Of a stretch of DNA of 37,470 nt, positions 2,998 to 8,055 are shown one piece after another (positions within the stretch are counted from its first letter, which is position 1; each line of letters opens with the position of its first letter). Origin of the DNA: an uncultured Clostridia bacterium (lineage in GTDB: Bacteria > Bacillota > Clostridia > Oscillospirales > UBA644); assembly GCA_944382895.1 (NCBI GenBank), contig CALWNV010000012.1, forward strand, positions 1 through 37,470, in the 5' to 3' direction. The notes under the pieces were generated by a model. That model made no database searches. It saw nothing but the letters and a program-made list of their open reading frames with translations, and was not told where the DNA came from. The position numbers and the translations under genes are program-made.

Positions 2998-3023
2998 TAT
3001 TATGAAAAGCTTGGATGTTCAAA

Positions 3024-3070
3024 GATTAAAAGCGCATCTGCTTTTTTATGCAGATGCGCTTTTAATCAAT
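3024..3070 (+). terminator. Intrinsic terminator after the TIM-barrel gene
   Basis: A perfect 18-base stem (3024-3041 with 3050-3067) encloses an 8-base T-rich loop. The tail is a modest AATTTTAT. It lies 26 bases after the stop codon. Confidence 0.85.
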
Positions 3071-3126
3071 TTTATATGTTTATATCATTAACTATGAAAT
3101 AAATCAAATAAAAAAAGCTGATCCTT

Positions 3127-4005
3127 TTATAATACACTGAAATACTTACCGGAAAAATCGGGAATAAAATTTTTACCGACACTTTCCTCTCCTTGTACAA
3201 AAGCGTTAACTACTCCTAATCTCTCGGCAAAACGAACAACCTCTCGATATTCCATTGACGAAACCTTCCTGTTTAATTCTGGGAAATTTACAAAAGCACG
3301 CATCGGGGTATACTGACACATAATAGATATATAAATATCATTCCCAAAATTCTCATAAAGCCATTCGATTATCCTTTTACTTTCTAACGTATGTCCGGGA
3401 AGCACAAGGTGTCTTACAAGAAGGCCTTTTTTCATCATGCCGCACTCAAACACAGGGTTTCCTACCTGTTTGAACATTATCCGGAGAGCGTTTTTCGCAA
3501 CTTCAGGATAATCCGGTGCGTTTGAAAATTTTTCCGCGCTTGAACGGTAGAAATACTTGAAATCAGGCAGATAAACATCAACGCTTTCATTTACATAATC
3601 TAATGACTTCTCGCTTTCATATCCGCTTGTATTATATATGACAGGAATTTTCAGAGAAGATCTTTTCAAAGCAGACGCAATTTGGACTGCATAATGAGTG
3701 GGGGTAACAAGATTTATATTATGAACCCCCAAAGATTGCAGGGAAAGAAATAAAGCACTCAGTTCGTCTACTGTAAAGCCTCTCCCCTTCTCTGTCCGAG
3801 AAATTTCCTCATTCTGACAAAAAACACATTTCAAGGAACAGCCTGAAAAGAAAACCGCCCCGGAACCTTTTTTACCGCATATACAAGGCTCTTCTCCGTA
3901 ATGAGCGGCGGCCCGCGCAATATAAACGATCTCGCCCGTACCGCAGAAACCTTTCCCTTCGCGGCGGTCCGCACCGCACATACGAGGACAAAGATTACAT
4001 TCCAT
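3127..4005 (-). CDS. Radical SAM protein, PflX-like (pyruvate formate-lyase activating enzyme-like)
   Basis: The N-terminus carries a Cys-rich segment (CNLCPRMCG, then GFCG), followed by the radical SAM cluster motif CSLKCVFC (CxxxCxxC) near residues 62-69. This layout is that of the COG1313/PflX group, whose true substrate is not known. The protein is expected to bind a 4Fe-4S cluster and cleave S-adenosylmethionine. I chose the ATG at 4005 because GGGAGAAG sits just before it and the conserved MECNLCPRMCG begins there; a longer frame upstream to 4044 adds unrelated residues. It follows corA after a hairpin and ends about 60 bases from the terminator of the convergent TIM-barrel gene. No glycyl-radical enzyme is nearby. 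Confidence 0.8.
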   Translation of the reverse strand: MECNLCPRMCGADRREGKGFCGTGEIVYIARAAAHYGEEPCICGKKGSGAVFFSGCSLKCVFCQNEEISRTEKGRGFTVDELSALFLSLQSLGVHNINLVTPTHYAVQIASALKRSSLKIPVIYNTSGYESEKSLDYVNESVDVYLPDFKYFYRSSAEKFSNAPDYPEVAKNALRIMFKQVGNPVFECGMMKKGLLVRHLVLPGHTLESKRIIEWLYENFGNDIYISIMCQYTPMRAFVNFPELNRKVSSMEYREVVRFAERLGVVNAFVQGEESVGKNFIPDFSGKYFSVL

Positions 4006-4042
4006 AACTTCTCCCAAAACCAAATAATAGTATACAAAACAC

Positions 4043-4068
4043 AAAGAGGCCTCAAACGCCTCTTTTTT
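4043..4068 (-). terminator. Hairpin between corA and the radical SAM gene
   Basis: The arms AAAGAGGC (4043-4050) and GCCTCTTT (4058-4065) pair perfectly, with a 7-base loop. It begins just after the corA stop. The minus-strand tail is only moderately T-rich (GTGTTTTG), so termination may be partial. The plus-strand side has six T. Confidence 0.6.
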
Positions 4069-4074
4069 GTTTAA

Positions 4075-5022
4075 TTATTTCATCATTCTGTCATTACGTA
4101 AAATCAGCCATGTAATCAAAATCCCCACAGCGGAAATAACCAAAGGGACCCACCAGAAATGAGCAAGAGGTAAAGAAGAAACCTCATCCGATAACGCAAT
4201 ATTCATCCCATAAAACCCGGTAACGATCGACGGGATAGCGAACAATATCGATATAAGAGTAAAGCGCTTCATGACAATATTAAGATTATTTGATATTATC
4301 GAAGCCATGGCGTCAGAAGTTCCTATAAGGATGCTCGAATATATCTGAGACATTTCAATAGCCTGAGCTATTTCTATAAGAACGTCATCAAGAAGATCCT
4401 TGTCGTCTTCGTATAGTTTGATATAACGGCCTTTGAGAATCTTATTTAATGTTGTTTCATCCGCACGCAAAGATGTAGTGAAATATATAAGTGACTTTTC
4501 CAGATCAAGCATTTGAATAAGTTCCTTGTTTTTCATAGAAACCTGAAGTCGTTTTTCTATGGCAATCGAATACTTGTCTATCTGATGCAGATATTGAAGA
4601 TACCTGTTCGCGGTTTTCAGAAGAAGAGTCAGCATAAACTGAGTTTTATGCGCCGTTTGTATATTTTTGACATAACCGTCTTCAATATCGTTTATAACAG
4701 AAAAATCACGCAGACAAACAGTTACAAAATAATCATCCGTTATAATCATGCCCAACGGCATTGTCTCATAAATAACGGTATCTTCATCCTTATGAGTATA
4801 CGGTACGTCTACTATTACAAGAACGTTCCCGTCTTCTGCTTCAACACGAGACGTTTCCTCTTCGTCAAGCGCGGCTTTTATAAAAGACTCTTCAACATTG
4901 AGCAGATTCACAAGCTCGGATATTTCATCATCGGTAGGATTAGAAGCATTTATCCAGCAATTCTGCTCCGGTTTATCAAGCCTGACGATCTTTCCTTCTT
5001 TTGTCTTAAAAAAATCAACCAT
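4075..5022 (-). CDS. corA: CorA-family divalent cation (Mg2+) transporter
   Basis: CorA proteins form homopentameric Mg2+ or Co2+ channels in the inner membrane. This product has a long acidic and helical cytoplasmic N-terminal domain. Two membrane helices at the C-terminus (about residues 252-270 and 286-308) flank the signature YGMN at residues 271-274. It ends with a short basic tail. I chose the ATG at 5022 (315 residues, MVDFFKTKEG), which has an ideal GGGGGAGGT site; a longer frame to 5100 would run through the leader region. The leader has its own sigma-A promoter and a possible small Cys-rich ORF, so Mg2+-linked control of this gene is plausible but not shown. Confidence 0.88.
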   Translation of the reverse strand: MVDFFKTKEGKIVRLDKPEQNCWINASNPTDDEISELVNLLNVEESFIKAALDEEETSRVEAEDGNVLVIVDVPYTHKDEDTVIYETMPLGMIITDDYFVTVCLRDFSVINDIEDGYVKNIQTAHKTQFMLTLLLKTANRYLQYLHQIDKYSIAIEKRLQVSMKNKELIQMLDLEKSLIYFTTSLRADETTLNKILKGRYIKLYEDDKDLLDDVLIEIAQAIEMSQIYSSILIGTSDAMASIISNNLNIVMKRFTLISILFAIPSIVTGFYGMNIALSDEVSSLPLAHFWWVPLVISAVGILITWLILRNDRMMK

Positions 5023-5078
5023 GTCTTTTACCTCCCCCAAACGGTAAAGCGACATGGCATTATTACCCCATACAAAAA

Positions 5079-5150
5079 TTATGCGCGCAAACAGCCGCAA
5101 TTACCGCTATTTTCTTTTTTACAACTTCGACCGTAAGGGTCCGCCGTCAC
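5079..5150 (-). CDS. Possible 23-residue Cys-rich micropeptide in the corA leader
   Basis: Within the corA 5' leader, a GTG at 5148-5150 opens 23 codons ending in TAA at 5079-5081. The peptide contains DPYGR followed by SCKKENSGNCGC, with three Cys and a basic stretch. This looks like a real peptide rather than random coding. AAGGAG lies about 11 bases upstream of the GTG, a little far but usable; an in-frame TGA lies just before. It could be a regulatory leader peptide for corA or a small metal-binding protein. I cannot assign a family from the sequence alone. Confidence 0.4.
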   Translation of the reverse strand: MTADPYGRSCKKENSGNCGCLRA

Positions 5151-5182
5151 GACTGTTCACTCTCCTTTTTGCAATTTAATTT

Positions 5183-5211
5183 ATTATACAACATTTTTTC
5201 GAAAAAATCAA
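5183..5211 (-). promoter_or_regulatory. Sigma-A promoter for the corA leader
   Basis: On the minus strand TTGATT (5211-5206), a 17-base spacer, then TATAAT (5188-5183). The predicted transcript starts near 5176, which leaves a leader of about 150 bases before the corA ATG. The -35 overlaps the last codons of the upstream HAD gene. Confidence 0.7.
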
Positions 5212-6035
5212 GCCTTATCGGTAAATTTCCCATCAAGATATTCAACAACGGCGCTGATCGCCCCTTCACGATGATGACGGACAACTTTTTCGGCAAGAGG
5301 TTTCAAGTCTTCGGCAGCGTTTTCGGGAACAAACGCATGCCCTGCGGCTTTAAGCATTGAGGCGTCATTGTAATAATCTCCTACCGCAATAGTATTTTTC
5401 ATTTCAATTCCGAGAATATCCGATAGTTTTTTCAGCCCTGTAGCTTTAGAAACACCGTCTTTCATCACTTCCATAAGTGTCGGAGTAGAACAAACACATT
5501 GTATACCTGTTAAATCAAGTGTAGACGAATACGACATCATTTCTTCAACAGTAGCCTCGTCCGCCGCAAGAAGAATTTTCACCCACGGAAGAGGTAAAAC
5601 ACGAAAATCCTCCCGAGATCCCTGCATATTTATCTTTTTTTTCATGTTTTCCGTAGCCTCATCGTCGTTGACGGTAAACATCTTATCTTTGTATAAAATA
5701 ACTTTAGGCACAAAAGGAAATTTTTCACACATTTTACCGAGAAAAATTTTTATATTCTCATCATATATCTCATCTGAAAAAAGAATGTGGTTCTTATTAA
5801 AATCATAAATCATTTGTCCGTTAAACAATATCGCAGGAGCGTTTTTAGGTATATCCACAGTAAGTTCCCGAGCTGCTACAAGACTTCGTCCGGTCGCAAA
5901 AGTAAAAAAACCACCGTTTTCTATAAAATATTCAATAGCCGTATTATTCTCAGGAAGTATCAGTTTTACTGATTTATCACCGAACAAAGTCCGGTCAAGA
6001 TCGCTTACCATCAGCAGCCCGCTGAATTTACCCAT
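5208..6035 (-). CDS. HAD-superfamily hydrolase, Cof type (sugar-phosphate phosphatase-like)
   Basis: The 275-residue product has the Cof/HAD-IIB layout. Motif I is SDLDRTL at residues 11-17 (nucleophile D12, acid/base D14). Motif II is the FATGRS block near residue 47. A large cap domain follows, then motif III/IV as KATGLKKL and GDYYNDASML near the C-terminus, which binds Mg2+. Motif I is DxDRT where most relatives have DxDGT, a small variation. Family members remove phosphate from sugar phosphates, PLP or flavin precursors, and the substrate cannot be read here. It lies 4 bases downstream of the DHHW gene, so the two form an operon. Confidence 0.8.
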   Translation of the reverse strand: MGKFSGLLMVSDLDRTLFGDKSVKLILPENNTAIEYFIENGGFFTFATGRSLVAARELTVDIPKNAPAILFNGQMIYDFNKNHILFSDEIYDENIKIFLGKMCEKFPFVPKVILYKDKMFTVNDDEATENMKKKINMQGSREDFRVLPLPWVKILLAADEATVEEMMSYSSTLDLTGIQCVCSTPTLMEVMKDGVSKATGLKKLSDILGIEMKNTIAVGDYYNDASMLKAAGHAFVPENAAEDLKPLAEKVVRHHREGAISAVVEYLDGKFTDKA

Positions 6036-6039
6036 ATCC

Positions 6040-7146
6040 CTACATCCCCATTTTTAATATATTTCTATCTTCACTGAAAGTTTTTGCGTTATATAGAACC
6101 AGTATATGCGTTGCACCAAGCTCATTTACCATTTCAACTATATCATTATTAAGATATCTTAAATCAATAAGATATACCGTTTCAAAAGAAGAAGCAAGAA
6201 ACGGGGCCATACAATGAGAATAGCTGTCCTTTATCACAACAAGTGTTTTGCCGTTGTTTATACCGGAACTTATTTTAAGGAAAGCGGGAGTCCCGCCTAA
6301 AAAGTAAGAATATTTATCTTTTTTGCTTAAAAATTCATCATAATAAAATGTTTCTGTTACCGCCCCGTTATCGTATTCAAGAGAAACTTTTCCTCCGTTA
6401 TCAAATTTATATATAGTATCGGGCGAAACAGAAAAATTACCTTTTGAGTGAAATGTACCTAAAAAAGAATCTGACACTTCTTCAATTTCATAATCTGTAA
6501 TCGAAGACGCGGTCACGTGCATATCCGCACATATTTTTTCATAGGCGTAAAATGCACCCAAAGTAGTCCAATGATGGTCTGTACGATAATAAAGATATTC
6601 ATCCTTGAATGTAGTCAATTGTGTACAAAGATCAACCGAGGGACAATCAATGCTGTTATAAATATTATCAATATAACTTTTCTGATCAACTACCTGCGCA
6701 TTCGGAGGTAGCATGTCTGAATTGATATAAAGGCTATTCGGAGCAATCGCAAAATATACCGGAGCGTCAACTTTCCCAACAAACGAGTTTATCGCCTGTA
6801 TCTGATTTTTTTCAAGTTCTTTATCAATATTCTCAAAAGTATCGAATAATATATCATCTCCTACATATACTCCGTTTATCTCCGTATTCTGCATAAGCCT
6901 CAGTATATTTGTTCTGATTGAAATAAACCCGTCACGAAAAGGAAAATTATCACACAGAAAGGTCTCAAAATCTTCCCCGAAACTACCGTTTGAAACCTTT
7001 ATAACGGAAATTTCAGGAAACCGTGCGAGATATCTGTTTTCCGTTTCCGAAAAAGATTTTTTAGGCAAAAGAAAAAGCAGAAAAAACATAAATGCCAAAA
7101 ACAATAAAAACATCGTCGTGATCAAACCGTTCAGATATTTTTTCAT
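6040..7146 (-). CDS. DHHW-family membrane-anchored protein (AlgX/DltD-like SGNH type)
   Basis: The 368-residue protein has an N-terminal membrane anchor (about residues 8-27) and an extracytoplasmic domain. The domain carries the family signature TDHHWTTLGA at about residues 189-198, plus a conserved FSETENRYLA segment after the anchor and YFAIAPNS near residue 131. These are features of DHHW/AlgJ-AlgX-like proteins, which usually act with an MBOAT O-acyltransferase to acetylate a surface polymer. No MBOAT gene is present in this window, so the partner must be elsewhere or absent. The gene is preceded by a likely sigma-A promoter and followed, 4 bases later, by the HAD gene. Confidence 0.75.
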   Translation of the reverse strand: MKKYLNGLITTMFLLFLAFMFFLLFLLPKKSFSETENRYLARFPEISVIKVSNGSFGEDFETFLCDNFPFRDGFISIRTNILRLMQNTEINGVYVGDDILFDTFENIDKELEKNQIQAINSFVGKVDAPVYFAIAPNSLYINSDMLPPNAQVVDQKSYIDNIYNSIDCPSVDLCTQLTTFKDEYLYYRTDHHWTTLGAFYAYEKICADMHVTASSITDYEIEEVSDSFLGTFHSKGNFSVSPDTIYKFDNGGKVSLEYDNGAVTETFYYDEFLSKKDKYSYFLGGTPAFLKISSGINNGKTLVVIKDSYSHCMAPFLASSFETVYLIDLRYLNNDIVEMVNELGATHILVLYNAKTFSEDRNILKMGM

Positions 7147-7212
7147 TTTATCGCTCCGTCTGTTTTATATATAATTATTTCCTGACGCTTTTCTGTGTTT
7201 ATCTCTGATAAT

Positions 7213-7241
7213 ATTCTATCACAAAAATGTAGGAATGTCGA
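7213..7241 (-). promoter_or_regulatory. Sigma-A promoter for the DHHW-HAD operon
   Basis: On the minus strand TCGACA (7241-7236), a 17-base spacer, then TAGAAT (7218-7213). The -35 lies inside the left arm of the dyad at 7233-7271. Confidence 0.65.
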
Positions 7242-7271
7242 TACAAATAATGTAAAAACTTATCGACATTC
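7233..7271. repeat. 11-base inverted repeat between divergent promoters (candidate operator)
   Basis: GAATGTCGATA (7233-7243) and TATCGACATTC (7261-7271) are perfect inverted copies 17 bases apart. The left arm covers the -35 of the leftward promoter. The right arm ends 3 bases before the -35 of the rightward promoter. Each arm contains TGTCGAT, one base from the Spo0A box TGTCGAA. Confidence 0.6.
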
Positions 7272-7274
7272 TTC

Positions 7275-7303
7275 TTGACAATTCGCGTTGTATATGTTAG
7301 TAT
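7275..7303 (+). promoter_or_regulatory. Sigma-A promoter for the zinc-ribbon membrane protein gene
   Basis: A perfect TTGACA at 7275-7280, a 17-base spacer, and TAGTAT at 7298-7303. The region downstream is very AT-rich. Confidence 0.65.
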
Positions 7304-7355
7304 ATATTATAATAATATATTTATAAATAACAGAATAAGGAGTGAATATTCAGTT

Positions 7356-7811
7356 ATGGCCTTTTGTCAAAAATGCGGAACACAACTTGCAGAAACCGCA
7401 AACTTCTGCCCCGTATGCGGAACGAGCGTAAATAACAACGAGACTTCACAACCGAGCCAACCTCAACAGCAGATACACGACACATCCAACGATAAACTTA
7501 TGGCAATCCTGTCTTATATCGGGATACTTGTTCTTATACCGATATTCGTCACACCCAGATCAGACTATGTAAAATTTCACGCTAATCAGGGCCTTGTCCT
7601 GTTGATATTTGAGGCGGCGACTGCTATACTTTCCTCAATCCTCGCTGCGATGTTTGCAGTTATTTTCTCGCCGATGGCCATAGTTGTCCCTGTTATCGCA
7701 TGGCTTCTTGAAATGGGCTATCTCGGTCTGGCGATATACGGAATAGTAAACGCTGCACAGATGAAGACGAATGAACTTCCGATTATCGGAAAGATAAAAA
7801 TAATAAAATAA
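7356..7811 (+). CDS. Zinc-ribbon plus multi-pass membrane protein (DUF4870/Tic20-like)
   Basis: The product begins with a double-CxxC zinc ribbon (FCQKCG at residues 3-8 and FCPVCG about 15 residues later). A Gln/Pro/Ser-rich linker follows. The C-terminal half has about three hydrophobic helices and the typical DUF4870 pattern (LSYIGILVLIPIF, then DYVKFHANQGLVLLIF). I chose the ATG at 7356 because the zinc ribbon begins there; an open frame to 7275 starts inside the promoter. Spacing to the AAGGAG site is rather long (about 13 bases). The molecular role of this family is unknown. It may be the first gene of an operon with the small Cys protein and pgi. Confidence 0.75.
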   Translation: MAFCQKCGTQLAETANFCPVCGTSVNNNETSQPSQPQQQIHDTSNDKLMAILSYIGILVLIPIFVTPRSDYVKFHANQGLVLLIFEAATAILSSILAAMFAVIFSPMAIVVPVIAWLLEMGYLGLAIYGIVNAAQMKTNELPIIGKIKIIK

Positions 7812-7851
7812 TTATAATATTTAATTTTATGGAGGGAGGGTATTTTCTGCG

Positions 7852-8055
7852 GTGTACGGAAAAAAGATCGAAACTGACTGCGCTTACTGTAAACACGGCT
7901 ATGTTCTTAAAAACGGAGACTACACCATATGTGATAAAGCGGGAGTCGTAATACGAAAATTCAAATGCAGAAAATTCAGATACGACCCATTAAAAAGGAT
8001 CCCTTCAAGACCGCAACGTAAAGCAGAATATAATATACATGATTTTGAATTGTAA
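7852..8055 (+). CDS. Small Cys-containing protein, probable zinc binder, unknown function
   Basis: This 67-residue basic protein has four cysteines: CAYC (residues 10-13), ICDK near residue 28 and KCRKFRYDPLKRIP near residue 39. This pattern suggests a small zinc ribbon. The CRKFRYDPLKR ending resembles short conserved proteins I associate with Clostridia. The start is GTG at 7852; a GGAGGGAGGG run lies about 12 bases upstream. It lies 40 bases after the zinc-ribbon membrane protein and 13 bases before pgi, so it is probably co-transcribed with both. No function is assigned. Confidence 0.7.
   Translation: MYGKKIETDCAYCKHGYVLKNGDYTICDKAGVVIRKFKCRKFRYDPLKRIPSRPQRKAEYNIHDFEL

Follow-up and report, generated by a model that had tools for sequence, protein, structure and literature searches.

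On the minus strand of the 37,470-nucleotide stretch of DNA analysed here (the window), a 23-codon open reading frame (ORF; 5079-5150 including the stop, with its GTG start at 5150) lies between a promoter-like site and the corA gene (5022-4075). The question raised by this locus is whether the ORF is a functional part of the corA leader and, if so, whether it acts through its product, through its RNA or through its translation. The original prediction had singled it out for its position and its composition, and both were found as described: the encoded peptide, MTADPYGRSCKKENSGNCGCLRA, contained three Cys (all in the last 14 residues) and one Lys pair, and the observation of an ORF at this place was borne out by comparative counts beyond chance. 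Features of the locus are collected in Table 1.

Table 1. Features of the corA leader region, in window positions.
Feature	Positions	Strand	Evidence
Promoter-like site, TTGATT (5211-5206), 17 bp, TATAAT (5188-5183)	5183-5211	-	10/12 consensus matches; no excess over shuffles
Shine-Dalgarno (SD) of the leader ORF, AAAAAGGAGAG, GGAG at 5165-5162, 11 bases 5' of the start	5160-5170	-	Sequence; similar position in relatives
Putative leader peptide ORF, 23 codons, GTG start, MTADPYGRSCKKENSGNCGCLRA	5079-5150	-	ORF list; M-x-x-[DE]-P upstream ORF in relatives
Codons 4-5, Asp-Pro (GAC CCT), conserved core	5136-5141	-	Codon counts over 134 upstreams; synonymous variation in relatives
Strand 1, leader-ORF start region, partner of the ORF 3' part (5098-5087)	5147-5158	-	Predicted fold; role inferred
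Strand 2, leader-ORF 3' part; AGCGGUAA (5108-5101) able to pair with the anti-SD strand	5087-5108	-	Window alone p = 0.10
Strand 3, anti-SD/anti-start strand, GCCAUGUCGCUUUACCGUU	5040-5058	-	Predicted fold; co-variation in relatives
Strand 4, corA SD GGGGGAGG (5038-5031, mostly hairpin loop) and start codon (stem)	5019-5038	-	Predicted fold
corA, CorA-type divalent cation transporter, taken as Mg2+ importer	4075-5022	-	PF01544 E 1e-52; GMN motif

Taken singly, the ORF was unremarkable. ORFs of at least 20 aa were abundant in the region (60 overlapping 3000-8000, both strands), so that its length was not significant by itself. The sigma-A promoter, announced as clear, was present with both hexamers and their spacing but showed no statistical excess (shuffles averaged 6.1 promoter-like sites, and 4500-6500 had 4), and its position is what recommends it. 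Comparison with the sequences of relatives makes the case for the ORF convincing.

Upstream regions of 148 corA loci were compared, from genomes taken to be Bacillota because records among them are of Oscillospiraceae, other Clostridia, and Erysipelotrichia-type and Bacillus-type genera; Flavonifractor plautii (L021) and Anaeromassilibacillus (L040) are among the relatives. Two loci without a usable match (L019 and L135) were dropped, and the 146 used were reduced to 134 by discarding duplicates whose last 150 bases were the same, a set that still holds some close relatives of one another and a few remote matches (e.g., L018) with an uncertain gene start. An SD-preceded upstream ORF (uORF) beginning M-x-x-[DE]-P was found in 81 of these 134 upstreams, window included, while dinucleotide shuffles gave a mean of 1.25 and a maximum of 4 over 20 rounds. 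Under a stricter SD definition, x-x-[DE]-P was found in 73 upstreams (0.5 in shuffles), [DE]-x-x-P in 18 (0.5) and either motif in 86 (1.0), with 48 upstreams having neither. Codon by codon, the excess was largest for Pro at codon 5 (90/134; 4.1 in shuffles) and Asp at codon 4 (67; 2.3), followed by Pro at codon 3 (43; 4.9), Ser at codon 7 (40; 5.8), Asp at codon 2 (21; 2.6) and Arg at codons 8 (34; 5.6) and 9 (42; 8.5).

Before MgtE and MgtA genes, used as a real-sequence control, the motif was detected in only one of 52 upstreams (MgtE 0/30, MgtA-type 1/22), six of these controls being weak (L204, L207, L210 and L240 with about 100 bases or fewer upstream; L192 and L241 with a possibly wrong ORF choice). 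A phylum-wide search found CorA in 202 of 398 genomes (E <= 1e-30), and 70 loci were examined among the matches listed: the motif preceded 1 of the 30 best PF01544 CorA loci and 16 of 40 others picked lower among the matches listed, gene starts being set by a simple rule that may be wrong for some and one of the 16 (L296) seemingly lying on the same contig as L064. The abundance of similar-sized ORFs in the region could suggest a chance ORF, an explanation that the motif counts, against both shuffles and real-sequence controls, leave with next to no probability.

Further acid-proline starts were seen outside these counts. Short ORFs beginning M-D-D-P, not included in the hit count, occurred upstream of four CorA genes (L267, L306, L314 and L315), and three Bacillus-type corA upstreams (L083, L096 and L091) held uORFs with DPDP or PEP further in (MSYAIDPDP, MSYSIDPDP and MDSNGPEP, respectively). 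In the window's own genome, the DNA pattern SD-RTG-xx-GAYCC gave five matches, one being the corA leader; two of the other four were inspected, of which one lay within aspS and one was intergenic without a clear partner. A longer DNA pattern matched in 31 of 59 relatives and was set aside as uninformative, control patterns matching too; one of its matches (L156) was antisense to ribosomal genes.

The two ends of the uORFs differed in their conservation. Over 33 related pairs, which are not independent of one another, differences at codon positions 1/2/3 numbered 24/17/33 in codons 2-9 and 133/103/86 from codon 10 onward, and the Asp and Pro codons varied synonymously among relatives. The N-terminus (codons 2-9) alone therefore looks constrained as protein, and the rest does not. 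The Cys-rich half, SCKKENSGNCGC, is the unconserved one, the conserved part being the Met-x-x-Asp-Pro end. Among the 81 motif uORFs (window included; in L028 an inner TTG start was scored in place of the outer MTSDP start), 27 had no Cys and only six, the window among them, had three. These counts bear on the second role originally suggested, that of a small Cys-rich metal-binding protein acting in trans, which had the cluster of three Cys in its favour: with Cys unconserved, C-terminal codons diverging without third-position bias, uORF lengths of 13-52 residues and no Pfam or NCBIfam match for the window's peptide (nor an NCBIfam match for the uORF peptide of L012), such a product is extremely unlikely, and it was rejected for its missing Cys conservation. 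The first suggested role, a leader peptide sensing metal or translation status, gained support from the recurrence of M-x-x-D-P before corA, in the register of E. coli MgtL.

The leader of the window was predicted to fold into two hairpins, the first joining the ORF start to the ORF 3' part and the second joining GCCAUGUC..UUUACC to GGUAAA.GACAUGGU and enclosing the start codon of corA together with the last part of its SD. Folding was slightly better than that of shuffles (z -1.56). An alternative pairing was available between AGCGGUAA of the ORF (5108-5101) and UUACCGUU (5047-5040). An RNA running from codon 7 to 5036, and so ending before most of the SD strand, adopted this alternative pairing (-21.3 kcal/mol); once the SD strand was included, folding of the window from codon 7 favoured the sequestering hairpin even with strand 2 free.

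Across relatives, a testable SD-covering hairpin was present in 56 of the 81 leaders. In these, strand 2 was more complementary to strand 3 than dinucleotide-shuffled versions of itself (mean z -0.99, 27% at p <= 0.05, Fisher p 1.6e-10, relatedness uncorrected), while the window alone gave z -1.36 and p = 0.10. Swapping strands between leaders weakened the 2:3 pairing from -15.76 to -12.54 kcal/mol in 17 leaders with a GAAAGGC SD (0/20000, relatedness uncorrected) and from -16.34 to -12.75 kcal/mol in 45 of the 56 (0/20000, relatedness uncorrected and with shared base composition a possible help). Pairing of strand 3 with the SD strand behaved likewise (n=17; own -10.61 against swapped -9.28, 0/20000, relatedness uncorrected). 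Computation thus showed co-variation across the relatives' sequences among three strands: the uORF 3' part, the anti-SD strand and the SD strand of corA. The original prediction had set conserved codons against conserved RNA structure as the distinction to be drawn upstream of corA; over the relatives codons 2-9 looked coding-like and the strands co-varied, and coding bias was lacking from codon 10 onward.

Co-varying paired strands, together with the folding score of the window's leader, are also what an RNA-only element such as a riboswitch would display, the ORF then being incidental. The N-terminal codons, varying mostly at third positions, argue against it, as does the failure to find an M-box in the genome (strict filters) or an Rfam family at gathering score anywhere in the window, where two weak matches (E 3.7 and 4.7) fell far under their gathering scores. 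A known riboswitch, named from the outset as a match that would explain the sequence, was ruled out on this Rfam result, and an RNA-only element in general is very improbable.

We favour, with a probability of roughly 0.7, the reading in which corA is regulated by a leader peptide, the product of this ORF, in the manner of the enterobacterial MgtL and MgtQ; the peptide probably switches this putative Mg2+ transporter gene on at low Mg2+. Ribosomes would initiate on the leader ORF. At low Mg2+, the nascent Met-x-x-Asp-Pro would destabilise the ribosome and cause drop-off near codon 5 (Asp4-Pro5), leaving strand 2, in the 3' half of the ORF, free to pair with strand 3; this pairing would stop strand 3 from closing over the corA start region, and CorA would be made. 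With ample Mg2+, ribosomes would read to the stop codon and mask strand 2, so that strand 3 would close over the SD and start codon of corA and CorA would be off. Computation supplied the conserved coding of the N-terminus, the location before corA and the three-strand co-variation in relatives. We infer the ribosome drop-off, Mg2+ as the signal, the direction of the switch and the operation of such a switch in the window's own leader.

An equilibrium accessibility test on 73 leaders (eight overlapping ones left out) spoke against the switch. Accessibility of the corA start in the drop-off state, at 0.391, fell short of the 0.445 obtained with the ribosome at the stop (Wilcoxon p 0.0015) and was the higher of the two in only 29 of the 73; compared with simple base shuffles as the null, only 41/73 leaders did better (p 0.08), and the window's accessibility was 0.23 in either state. 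A kinetic, co-transcriptional switch would presumably evade a test of this kind.

Control could instead be exerted on transcription, with translation of the uORF deciding whether a terminator or a Rho site upstream of corA takes effect, a mode reported for mgtL and corL. Rho is described as active at Salmonella mgtA as well as in the corA leaders of enterobacteria in parts of one such report (PMC11552253), and among the leaders compared here a terminator-like hairpin with a U run stood between motif and corA in 7 of 16 with a gap of more than 100 bases, against 4 of 58 with a shorter gap. One branch may for this reason act on transcription. The seven long-gap leaders with such a hairpin (L021, L022, L023, L025, L026, L035 and L104) have gaps of 108-143 bases, and hairpin and gap together suggest a transcriptional version. 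The window, searched for hairpin terminators in 4500-6500, had no terminator-like site, and the co-varying pairing of strand 3 with the SD strand likewise points away from transcription; corA translation is the likelier target in the window, and attenuation of transcription is an unlikely explanation of this leader.

Under our preferred reading the signal is Mg2+. An attenuator could also sense translation more generally (Pro or Asp charging, EF-P or ABC-F status, ribosome-targeting drugs), with DP serving as a slow site at which ribosomes stall and do not drop off. Pro at codon 5 being the most frequent feature (90/134), the basic residues that follow DP, and a strand co-variation equally compatible with stalling would all fit such a sensor. 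Its probability is nevertheless low: upstreams of the other transporter genes examined nearly lacked the motif, the Pro mostly comes with an acid at codon 4 or 2, as in MgtL, and the single-amino-acid run typical of charging sensors was not seen.

The assignment of Mg2+ leans on the identity of the downstream gene. Its product was CorA by Pfam (PF01544, E 1e-52) and contained GMN, which we take to be the CorA family motif. Its score against TIGR00383, the NCBIfam corA equivalog, was 102 bits, below the cut-off of 200.75, and it is therefore regarded as a divergent CorA; Mg2+ is taken as its putative substrate from family membership. Window-type CorA was present in 18 of 59 genomes (E <= 0.001) and in 59 of 197 genomes of the order (E <= 1e-40), the window's own included in both counts. 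The 19 further genomes searched from the same family lacked it, and the comparison of frames accordingly covers more distant genomes. Of these 19, 17 had MgtE, for which the window's genome, 93% complete, gave no match; an exchange of Mg2+ importers may have taken place in the window's lineage.

In Bacillota, Mg2+ controls transporters through the M-box (ykoK) riboswitch (RF00380). The leader proposed here would share that function but differs in kind, the M-box being an RNA aptamer. No match to the M-box covariance model was obtained in the window, and under strict filters no M-box was found in the window's genome or in 56 of 59 genomes. A leader peptide of the proposed type is a possible explanation of how Mg2+ uptake is controlled in such gut Clostridia.

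To our knowledge, destabilisation of ribosomes by early acidic and proline codons has been recognised as a Mg2+ sensor only in enterobacterial leaders; ribosome destabilisation itself was reportedly described by Chadani in 2017. No leader peptide of Bacillota corA was found in the open-licence literature, most subscription papers lying outside the search. On balance we lean towards a leader-peptide family that precedes a large share of corA genes in Bacillota, in which codons 2-5 carry the only conserved element, a code of acid and proline (xxDP, xxEP, DxxP, perhaps DDP) in the MgtL register. If this is true, more than one phylum would sense Mg2+ through the instability of ribosomes at low Mg2+, a device that would have arisen anew on unrelated RNAs and would here be linked to corA translation. 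Its conservation upstream of corA outside the enterobacterial phylum would speak for a general mechanism. The dozens of natural variants (xxDP, xxEP, DxxP) would also be material for learning which codons make ribosomes Mg2+-sensitive.

Among known systems, MgtL, the mgtA leader peptide of E. coli and Salmonella, is close in its coding start. Read from the E. coli genome record, it begins MEPDP, with acid and Pro in the same register as the MTADP of the window. In the window, too, an acidic residue and Pro fall within the first five codons before a putative Mg2+ transporter gene, in the order Thr2, Ala3, Asp4, Pro5, and the full EPDP (Glu2-Pro3-Asp4-Pro5) is absent. The two leaders are further alike in the basic residues that come next, and mutually exclusive RNA structures have been reported for MgtL. 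They differ in that mgtA belongs to another transporter family and probably another phylum, in the missing Glu2-Pro3, and in that reports place the action of mgtL at transcription, corA translation being the likelier target here. According to passages of PMC11282234, the EPDP of E. coli MgtL causes ribosome drop-off there at low Mg2+, and changing Glu2/Asp4 to Gln/Asn restored mgtL expression in an ettA mutant, with mgtA-fusion expression undetectable. As far as the relevant passages of PMC11552253 go, Rho acts at mgtA in Salmonella and is said not to be seen to do so at E. coli mgtA. The window's peptide would work like the MgtL/MgtQ kind, yet it is not filed as an MgtL, because it departs from the full EPDP and because a response to Mg2+, ribosome drop-off and a dependence on bL31 are putative here.

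A short ORF in the corA leader is shared with CorL of Enterobacteria, whose translation in E. coli is described in part of PMC11552253 as inversely related to corA expression, with a Mg2+ response. At the place described for CorL, E. coli has the annotated small ORF ysgD (L251, 2219-2275), which reads LDTPSRYWLTILSSRINS and which its position and TTG start suggest to be corL. It starts LDTPSR, with Asp2 and Pro4, an acid-Pro start that resembles the corA leaders found here. Unlike the window's leader, ysgD has its Pro in register 4 instead of 5, and CorL is Rho-dependent. The corA RNA motif is described solely in Gammaproteobacteria in the relevant portion of PMC6429828.

MgtQ, encoded between mgtC and mgtB in Salmonella, comes near in RNA arrangement. 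As given in sections of PMC8092293, it has Asp2 and Glu5, its RNA forms stems 1:2 and 3:4 or else 2:3, the 3:4 stem hides the mgtB ribosome-binding site (RBS), and its Pro codon is, per a section heading, dispensable. With only 8 codons, acids at positions 2 and 5, and a site between two genes, before mgtB, it differs from the leader ORF of the window; the two share acidic early codons and the choice between 1:2/3:4 and 2:3 pairing at the RBS of a Mg2+ transporter gene, putatively so in the case of corA.
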